A stretch of DNA of 52,595 bases from Candidatus Woesearchaeota archaeon (GTDB lineage Archaea > Nanobdellota > Nanobdellia > Woesearchaeales > UBA10216): NCBI GenBank assembly GCA_002688315.1, contig NZCN01000002.1:102979-155573 (forward strand), in the 5' to 3' direction. Under the pieces are notes generated by a model that was not told the origin of the DNA, did no database searches, and saw nothing but the letters and a program-made list of their open reading frames with translations. Made by a program: the position numbers and the translations under genes. Shown in pieces: positions 3,709 to 4,517 of the stretch (the first letter of the stretch is position 1; each line of letters begins with the position of its first letter).

Positions 3709-3820
3709 GGGAGCGTAGTACAATCTGGCTAGTATAGGGGCCTCCAGAAATTGGAGGGCTGAGTCGCAAGACGATGACTGAAGAAAGCCCTAGATCTGAG
3801 TTCAAATCTCAGCGCTCCCA
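3709..3820 (+). tRNA. tRNA-Trp (anticodon CCA) with a 38-nt intron
   Basis: The acceptor stem is GGGAGCG (3709-3715) with CGCTCCC (3813-3819) and discriminator A at 3820. The T arm is CTGAG-TTCAAAT-CTCAG (3796-3812). The anticodon stem is GGGGC (3737-3741) with GCCCT (3787-3791), and the loop reads C-T-CCA-G...A, giving anticodon CCA at 3744-3746. An intron separates position 37 (3747) from position 38 (3786), the usual site for archaeal tRNA-Trp introns. The gene lies directly upstream of the AlkD-like gene and is probably cotranscribed with it. CCA is not encoded. A class II tRNA reading is excluded because the other possible anticodon hairpin would lack T33. Confidence 0.88.
3748..3785 (+). 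other. Intron of tRNA-Trp
   Basis: The 38-base insert lies between tRNA positions 37 and 38. Exon bases 3742-3745 (CTCC) can pair with GAAG just before the 3' cut with one C-A mismatch, giving a relaxed bulge-helix-bulge rather than a perfect one. The inside holds GTC-GCAA-GAC, a GNRA-type hairpin, and box-like words CTGA, CGATGA and CTGA. Those words resemble the C/D guide carried in tRNA-Trp introns of Euryarchaeota, but the insert is too short for a full guide. The exact splice point may shift by one or two bases because of the A-rich flanks. Confidence 0.7.
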
Positions 3821-3833
3821 CTTTTCTTTTAAA

Positions 3834-4517
3834 ATGAAATACAACGAAATTGTCAAACAATTGGAATCTTTGTCAAGCCCTGAAAATCGGCAAGGCATGG
3901 CTCGCTTTGGTATTAACATAGAAAAAGCGTATGGAGTTTCAGTTGCTGATTTGAGAAAGCTTGCTCGCAAAATAAAGCACAATCATCTTCTTGCACAGCA
4001 GTTGTGGTCTTCAGAAATGCATGAAGCGCGTATCCTTGCAAGCATGGTTGATAAGCCTGAGCTTGTTACAGAAAAGCAGATTGAGCAATGGGCAAAAGAC
4101 TTTAATTCATGGGATTTAACAGACCAGTGCTGCCTTAACCTTTTCTCAAAAACTAAGTTTGCATACAAAAAATGCTTTGAACTAAGCATAAGAAAAGAAG
4201 AGTTTGTCAAGAGAACAGCTTTTGCCTTGATGGCATGCCTTTCTTGGCAAAACAAGCAAATGCCTGACAGCAAGTTTGAAAAATTCTTCCCTATTATAAT
4301 AAGAGAAGCAACTGATGAAAGAAATTTTGTTAAGAAAGCAGTTAACTGGGCTCTGAGGCAAATTGGAAAGAGAAACATCAGCTTAAACAAAAAAGCAATT
4401 GCTGCTGCCAAGAAAATCGAAAAGATAGATGATAAAACTGCAAAGTGGATTGCTAAGGATGCTCTCAAAGAATTAACTAGTGTTTCTGTTCAGAAACGAC
4501 TTTCTGACGCTCATTAG
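3834..4517 (+). CDS. AlkD-like DNA alkylation repair protein (HEAT-like repeats)
   Basis: The product is 227 aa from the ATG at 3834; an in-frame ATG at 3774 lies inside the tRNA and is not credible. The whole length is HEAT-like helical repeats. The residues that mark the DNA glycosylase AlkD family are present: the WDLTD block (W93, D94, D97), R127 in KRTAFAL, and W172 with R175 in NWALRQIGKR. Family members excise positively charged alkylated bases such as N3- and N7-alkylpurines without base flipping. The gene begins 13 bases after the tRNA-Trp 3' end with no Shine-Dalgarno site, which suggests a joint transcript freed by tRNA processing. Confidence 0.88.
   Translation: MKYNEIVKQLESLSSPENRQGMARFGINIEKAYGVSVADLRKLARKIKHNHLLAQQLWSSEMHEARILASMVDKPELVTEKQIEQWAKDFNSWDLTDQCCLNLFSKTKFAYKKCFELSIRKEEFVKRTAFALMACLSWQNKQMPDSKFEKFFPIIIREATDERNFVKKAVNWALRQIGKRNISLNKKAIAAAKKIEKIDDKTAKWIAKDALKELTSVSVQKRLSDAH

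Follow-up and report, generated by a model that had tools for sequence, protein, structure and literature searches.

A 38-nucleotide tRNA-Trp intron of a Woesearchaeal archaeon is probably a half-size box C/D guide for its own tRNA

Introduction

In Haloferax volcanii and Pyrococcus (sR50), the intron of tRNA-Trp carries a guide RNA that has been described with C/D and C'/D' boxes directing the modifications Cm34 and Um39; the H. volcanii Trp intron is 103 nt long, and a median of 65 nt was given for Trp introns (PMC2584109, PMC4090602, PMC7994747). Sulfolobus, Haloferax, and Thermococcus have been reported to carry Cm34 in their tRNA-Trp (PMC7668247, PMC2584109). The Haloferax intron has been reported to act in trans, and the choice between cis and trans action in vivo has been called open (PMC7994747, PMC2584109). 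The circular Trp intron was reported to be abundant in Thermococcus (PMC9014305).

Archaeal C/D RNPs have been reported to need both the C/D and the C'/D' motif (PMC8413462), a need that is also stated in the titles of 2003 papers cited by PMC3608112. In Haloferax, the Trp intron and the methylations guided by its C/D boxes were found to be dispensable (PMC4090602). Given these two reports, a natural half guide poses a testable problem. The titles and opening lines of abstracts that we surveyed mention neither a half guide in tRNA-Trp introns nor Trp introns of Woesearchaeota; the original guide papers (PMC92551, PMC275556, PMC2441990) may note a one-motif form.

Here we describe a tRNA-Trp intron that is 38 nt long (37 to 57 nt in relatives). 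It shares with the Haloferax and Pyrococcus guides the gene, the 37/38 site, the putative C34 target, an intronic guide, and a D'/C' element. Compared by description, it differs from them in having one motif and no guide to position 39, which is a G. With archaeal two-guide box C/D sRNAs it shares the N+5 rule, a D'/C' pair with tandem G.A, and presumably the same proteins. Unlike them, it contains a single motif, and its C'/D' element is a kink-turn (k-turn) with a capped stem and a 3-nt bulge, not a k-loop. A likewise short, C/D-like intron of a DPANN tRNA is that of Nanoarchaeum equitans tRNA-Met, which is 66 nt long, for which box D and a variant box C were indicated, and for which a C/D role was postulated (PMC3491384).

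Results

The tRNA-Trp gene and its intron

The window is a 52,595-nt stretch of contig NZCN01000002.1 of Candidatus Woesearchaeota archaeon, the genome of which (912 kb) is 99.7% complete. A tRNA covariance search placed a tRNA-Trp at exactly 3709-3820 (50.1 bits, above the cut-off). This tRNA-Trp(CCA) gene lies on the + strand and specifies a 112-nt pre-tRNA with a single intron. ARAGORN with bacterial settings detected no tRNA in the window, and Rfam at gathering thresholds gave no match in it. The features of the gene are as follows:

3709-3747, + strand: exon 1, with anticodon stem GGGGC, loop CTCCAG ending at G37, and C34 at 3744 (exon-model alignment)
3748-3785, + strand: intron of 38 nt at 37/38, sequence AAATTGGAGGGCTGAGTCGCAAGACGATGACTGAAGAA
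3751-3757, + strand: guide TTGGAGG, which pairs with CCTCCA (31-36) of exon 1, with a possible U-G pair to G37
3759-3762, + strand: box D' CTGA (sequence and relatives)
3763-3772, + strand: capped C-stem GTC-GCAA-GAC of the k-turn, the stem of which is also paired in relatives
3773-3777, + strand: C' box core GATGA, with bulge L1-L3 = G3773 A3774 T3775 and tandem sheared pairs G3776.A3762 and A3777.G3761
3778-3781, + strand: second CTGA, the box D of the first-pass annotation; it shares bases with the splice-motif GAAG and is not conserved as a box
3780-3783, + strand: GAAG, 3' strand of the central helix of the splice motif, which pairs with CTCC (3742-3745) except C34 x A3781
3786-3820, + strand: exon 2 (covariance search and exon-model alignment)

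The first-pass annotation had reported a 38-base tRNA-Trp intron at 37/38 and a GTC-GCAA-GAC hairpin, and both were recovered at 3748-3785 and 3763-3772, respectively. It had named boxes and had not named the guide TTGGAGG. The guide ends one base before the CTGA at 3759-3762, and the fifth base 5' of this box D', G3754, pairs with C34, as expected from the N+5 rule of box C/D guides. The intron combines position 37/38, antisense complementarity to C34 at N+5, and a k-turn-capable D'/C' element, which are among the features of a tRNA-Trp intron C/D guide.

A Trp_Tyr_perm gene (PF03222; 2505-3626, - strand) adjoins the tRNA gene in divergent orientation. Near tRNA-Trp, a start motif resembling that of this gene was seen at 10 of the 18 loci checked, all of them of the same family (including L003, L004, L007, L009, L010, L011, L014, L017, and L019). 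At these loci, tRNA-Trp would neighbour the gene of a likely aromatic amino acid transporter. On the other side, the longest open reading frame of a DNA_alkylation gene (PF08713; 3774-4517, + strand) begins within the tRNA, and the likelier start is the ATG at 3834.

The element recurs in long tRNA-Trp introns of the order

Relatives of the gene were sought by a DNA search of 59 relatives and with an exon-only tRNA-Trp covariance model, which holds no intron information, in 240 genomes of the order and 236 of the phylum. From the matches listed, which covered part of the total and of which those with introns were favoured, 99 distinct Trp genes were tabulated; they are a set of inspected genes and not a census. 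Duplicates (L054, L075, L121), genes with other anticodon loops (L079, the second match of L055, L140, L146), and two genes from outside the order that failed the CTCCA filter (L123 and L136, loop TTCCAG, which also reads CCA) were excluded; one of the latter two has no intron, and the other has a short intron lacking the element. Of the 99 genes, 56 carry introns of 37-57 nt (median 46), 7 carry introns of 13-31 nt, and 36 have none at 37/38. All 56 long introns among these matches come from the same order. The short introns, mostly from other orders, are ordinary bulge-helix-bulge (BHB) introns at the same tRNA-Trp site and contain neither guide nor k-turn element. The intron of L010 also carries the motif; its gene escaped the exon covariance model, probably owing to an interrupted T arm.

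A loose motif comprising guide, D', stem, and C' was present in 51/56 introns, compared to 0.0015 occurrences per dinucleotide-shuffled intron, and a strict motif in 45/56, compared to 0.0003. Among the 56, the guide of L080 is one base off register, and mismatches in the guide or a changed box are seen in L004, L013, L101, and L115. In 20,000 dinucleotide shuffles of the 38-nt intron itself, CTGA, GATGA, and CTGA occurred in this order in 0.37%, TGGAnnnCTGA in 0.94%, and guide, CTGA, and GATGA jointly in 0.02%. It had been suggested that related introns of unrelated sequence without C/D words would speak against a C/D origin. Introns of this kind do exist in the 13-31-nt class, but not as a rule among the long introns, 51 of which keep the motif.

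A pattern scan for guide, D', and C' matched 179 of 352 genomes of the order, and the same pattern read backwards matched 3 of 352; of the genomes with a completeness of 90% or more and a contamination of 5% or less, 107/180 contained the pattern. These counts err in both directions: the pattern misses variants, such as the element carried by G001, G002, and G004 of the same family, and in at least one of the 179 genomes (G021) the match is not tRNA-like. The element is also present in the Candidatus Woesearchaeota records JAHFTU010000042.1, DUGG01000067.1, and JACPBY010000005.1; other records of the order that carry it are titled Nanoarchaeota or Woesearchaeota.

Inserts elsewhere in tRNA-Trp also seem to be present, in the D loop (L003, L007, L009, L011, L014, L017, L019, L094, L110, L119) and in the T arm (L004, L005, L010, L013, L014, L017, L019, L111, L192). 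Relatives seem to have up to three introns per tRNA-Trp gene, and L094, L110, L119, and L111 have such an insert and none at 37/38. Three genomes (G031, G069, and G126; loci L067, L074, and L073) apparently contain two tRNA-Trp-like genes, one intronless and one with the half guide, as judged from the pattern match.

Covarying pairs fix the guide register and a kink-turn

All five guide pairs 32-36 were kept at this same register in 48/55 parsed introns, including the one described here, and four of them in 5 more. Guide position 2 is C when nt 31 is G (27 introns) and G when nt 31 is C (10 introns), giving Watson-Crick pairs in 37/51; permutation of labels gave a mean of 21.3 and a maximum of 32 in 20,000. 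Pairs 1, 2, and 3 of the capped stem were formed in 51/51, 48/49, and 35/38 introns, respectively, pairs 2 and 3 by several pair types. By inspection, GNRA and UUCG tetraloops often cap the stem.

Pairing between the first D' base and the second base that follows GATGA (pos6) was seen in 36/54 introns (A-T in 23, T-A in 11, C-G in 2), whereas the permuted mean was 19.1 and the maximum 31 in 10,000. The neighbouring register D'1-pos7 gave 20 pairs against 14.7 expected (515/10,000 as high), and the remaining registers were near expectation. These permutation tests do not remove all shared ancestry; the pair changes occur across several families. The D'1-pos6 covariation fixes the register of the k-turn: D' (nUGA), the capped C-stem, a bulge (G/A/T)-(A/G)-U, G-A sheared with the GA of D', and D'1-pos6 as the NC-stem pair. 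Thus, judged from covarying pairs, the fold is a kink-turn. In the gene described here, D'1-pos6 is a mismatch (C3759 x T3779), and the pair is formed in 2/13 of the CTGA-type introns to which it belongs. An alternative reading of the hairpin, in which tandem G.A pairs lie flush with the stem without a bulge and hence without a k-turn, was ruled out by the D'1-pos6 covariation and by the full GATGATGA in Altiarchaeales. Of the boxes proposed in the first-pass annotation, CTGA as D', CGATGA as C', and CTGA as D, the words themselves are present, but the register differs, with GAU inside GAUGA forming the bulge.

The intron contains one motif only

None of the 56 introns contains GATGA upstream of the guide. 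CTGA was found anywhere after C' in 12/56 introns, in 7 of these within CTGAAG of the splice motif. It follows C' directly in 5/56, namely in the gene described here, in three others of its family, and in L092, and in this position leaves no room for a second guide. The CTGA at 3778-3781 is present as a word, but it recurs too rarely for a conserved box D and overlaps the splice-motif GAAG. No guide to position 39 with its own box D was found, base 39 being G in this tRNA, and the intron lacks the joint C/D and C'/D' motifs of two-guide archaeal C/D sRNAs. The absence of GATGA upstream and the immediate box D in 5/56 argue for a one-motif half guide.

We consider it unlikely that the intron is instead a complete two-motif guide, the second C/D motif of which is degenerate or comes in part from the exon or from the intron's 3' tail. 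The second CTGA of the intron would fit such a guide. In addition, the 3' segment after C' scored a mean of 9.8 against nts 21-31 of its own tRNA, compared to 8.1 when tRNAs of other genomes were assigned by permutation (maximum 8.6 of 300), and such tail pairing fits a second guide or a closing helix. However, the same tails scored 8.6 against nts 1-11, which served as control stretch, and relatedness is not removed from either score; the tail pairing is at most a lead. The lack of GATGA upstream of the guide in all 56 introns and the scarcity of CTGA after C' also speak against a second motif; for box C, exon sequence was inspected by eye.

Free-standing trans guides of the form GATGA-N2-9-TGGAGNNCTGA were found with this narrow pattern in 3 of 45 genomes (G034, G099, G167). 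Only G167 among them is without a half guide, and G167 also has no Nop5; this pattern thus gives no sign that intronless genomes have relocated the guide. A recurring candidate for a canonical C/D sRNA, TGATGA(R)GTTATTCCC...CTGA...TGATGA, was detected with the exact pattern in 4 of 40 genomes of the order:

G099:C9:16251-16282, canonical C/D sRNA candidate
G049:C38:1762-1794, canonical C/D sRNA candidate
G037:C1:290740-290771, canonical C/D sRNA candidate
G031:C2:502148-502180, canonical C/D sRNA candidate

In this exact-pattern search of 40 genomes, the genome described here had no TGATGA..CTGA..TGATGA candidate. The contig of the G099 candidate also bears Nop5 and fibrillarin.

The guide hairpin and the splice motif require the same anticodon-loop bases

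The C-A mismatch that had been noted in the central helix of the BHB was confirmed: CTCC x GAAG forms 3/4 pairs, with C34 (3744) facing A3781. The splice motif is thus not a canonical hBHBh', having a mismatch at C34 and, by inspection, no intron-side helix. The splice-helix strand reads G[A/T][A/G]G in 35/56 introns, in which it forms three pairs, counting G-U, and leaves C34 mismatched, indicating that the mismatch is a family trait; C34 is paired in the 19/56 introns of a 'GG' type, and 2/56 are of neither type. The last six bases of the 'GG'-type introns (n = 19) gave 4.11 of 6 pairs with nts 24-29; this pairing was discounted, as permuted tails came close at 3.85 (27/2000 as high).

Both the guide hairpin and the splice motif use CUCC (32-35) of the anticodon loop and are therefore mutually exclusive. 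In folding energies calculated without protein, the minimum-energy fold keeps at least 4/5 guide pairs in 38/55 introns, and the unconstrained fold lies below the splice-motif-constrained fold in 50/55.

Alpha-4 splicing endonucleases are generally regarded as strict. Broad specificity has been reported for the (alpha-beta)2 and epsilon-2 types, and alpha'2 enzymes were described as canonical in their specificity (PMC12397907). The relaxed splice motif had been taken to imply an endonuclease of broad specificity, a conclusion that does not follow from our data: the C34 mismatch recurs in 35/56 introns, and catalytic EndA (PF01974) is encoded by one gene per genome in 40/40 genomes, in a search that a PF01974-divergent beta subunit would escape. 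The EndA gene of the present genome is in two pieces at contig ends. The EndA of the sister genome G002 is a single unit of 175-176 aa with an N-terminal and a catalytic domain; its best sequence match is 3iey_A, which has a partner chain, 3iey_B, followed by 5x89 and 1a79. By this comparison, G002 EndA looks like the homotetrameric, single-subunit type.

The half guide co-occurs with genes for C/D RNP proteins

In 165 genomes of the order, Nop5 (PF01798) was detected in 74/76 half-guide genomes and in 60/89 others (Fisher 2e-7), the 89 including genomes in which the pattern misses the element. Class-level genomes outside the order are omitted from this comparison, and G291 is without intron status. 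When Nop5 was permuted within families, 97/20,000 permutations were as extreme. The status of 16 added half-guide genomes (including G142, G168, and G181) derives from the pattern match alone, and G031, G069, and G126 were counted as half-guide genomes by a pattern match away from the best tRNA-Trp hit. Of the 76 half-guide genomes, the two that lack Nop5 have a completeness of 75% and 76%. In family f25, Nop5 is absent from 14 of the 19 genomes tested and present in its two half-guide genomes. Genomes with short introns lack Nop5 in 5/5 cases outside the order and in 1/2 inside it.

Among 40 genomes searched, fibrillarin scored above the cut-off in 23/23 half-guide genomes and in 0/10 genomes without Nop5, G267 having a weak match below the cut-off. 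The genome described here encodes Nop5 and fibrillarin, the latter with the motifs YQDIAQ and AVKSRSID, which we take to be the active-site region. Its Nop5 (L219/L242) lacks approximately 22 residues of the central region in comparison to 3id5, and PF01798 is interrupted or late-starting in several relatives. A shortened Nop5 coiled coil might bear on half-guide assembly.

The k-turn might only recruit L7Ae for shaping of the pre-tRNA or for splicing control, with no guided methylation. The mutual exclusion of guide hairpin and splice motif and the folds favouring the guide would suit such a role, but L7Ae has been described as a universal archaeal protein (PMC5539422), yet the element tracks Nop5 and fibrillarin. 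Moreover, the spacing is exactly N+5 to the base at which other archaea methylate their tRNA-Trp (PMC7668247, PMC2584109). An L7Ae-only function is, in our judgment, rather improbable.

One-motif introns occur outside the order

The core of guide, D', stem, and C' was also found in tRNA-Trp introns of Altiarchaeales (L176, L178, L179), Diapherotrites (L205), an archaeon (L189), and MAGs labelled 'Euryarchaeota' (L191, L200). These introns are 63-79 nt long, except that of L205 (183 nt). The three Altiarchaeal introns contain the full GATGATGA. They were found by the pattern, which matched 44 stretches; 19 archaeal ones among these were read. Upstream of the guide, GATGA is absent from the outside-order introns returned by the scan. 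As these introns are also one-motif, the single motif does not reflect local decay.

Bacterial matches and the Hadesarchaeal L204 were rejected as chance-like, since the tRNA-Trp model did not match where the pattern did. In two Nanohalarchaeota (L173:5296-5390 and L197:6464-6563), the 5' half of a tRNA-Trp was seen together with guide and D'/C' element, and no matching anticodon 3' strand was found within 260 nt; these may be split or long-intron tRNAs.

The first-pass annotation had left the choice between a decayed remnant and a minimal half guide. A remnant of a full two-motif guide that is now functionless would account for the missing box C and box D, for the mismatches of L004, L115, and L013, and for the 36/99 distinct Trp genes without a 37/38 intron among the matches listed. 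Nevertheless, the sequence, the register, and the covarying pairs are kept in many families, the element co-occurs with Nop5, and even the larger introns that the scan found outside the order lack GATGA upstream of the guide. Decay is thus very unlikely. The minimal half guide is upheld by the C34 guide at N+5, D', C', and a covarying k-turn stem across many families, and is also backed by the co-occurrence with C/D RNP genes. Finally, the need to pair with CUCC in the splice motif could by itself produce GGAG, as in the short introns L137 and L138 of other orders, but it is exceedingly improbable that the words are due to chance or are a by-product of the splice motif, which uses a separate 3' segment, the full motif occurring in 0.02% of shuffles of the intron versus 51/56 relatives.

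Discussion

The comparison of sequences suggests that the intron is probably a half-size box C/D methylation guide for C34 of its own tRNA. According to this proposal, the 5' segment TTGGAGG would pair with bases 31-36 in and next to the anticodon loop, either in the pre-tRNA or from the excised linear or circular intron. The D'/C' element would fold into the capped-stem k-turn, to which L7Ae should bind. L7Ae would then recruit Nop5 and fibrillarin, leading to 2'-O-methylation of C34, five bases from D'. Because the guide pairing excludes the splice motif, C34 should be methylated either before splicing or by the excised intron acting in trans. We infer an order in which methylation comes first and the intron departs afterwards, in cis or in trans. 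One Nop5 dimer could hold two introns or pre-tRNAs together; alternatively, a single half-RNP may be active.

More tentatively, and with slightly less than even confidence, we propose that a natural one-motif C/D guide serves the formation of Cm34 in tRNA-Trp of Woesearchaeota, Altiarchaeales, Diapherotrites, and some 'Euryarchaeota'. This guide might work either without a symmetric two-motif RNP or through two pre-tRNAs or introns that share a Nop5 dimer. It could be an older form that preceded the two-motif introns of Haloferax and Pyrococcus.

With a 112-nt pre-tRNA carrying its own 38-nt guide, nature would provide a very small system for testing whether 2'-O-methylation in archaea depends on two symmetric motifs. 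Such introns may be overlooked by software that looks for a strict splice motif or for a guide with four boxes. For the organisms themselves, the half guide could explain why the intron persists in reduced DPANN genomes and why it is absent jointly with Nop5 and fibrillarin.
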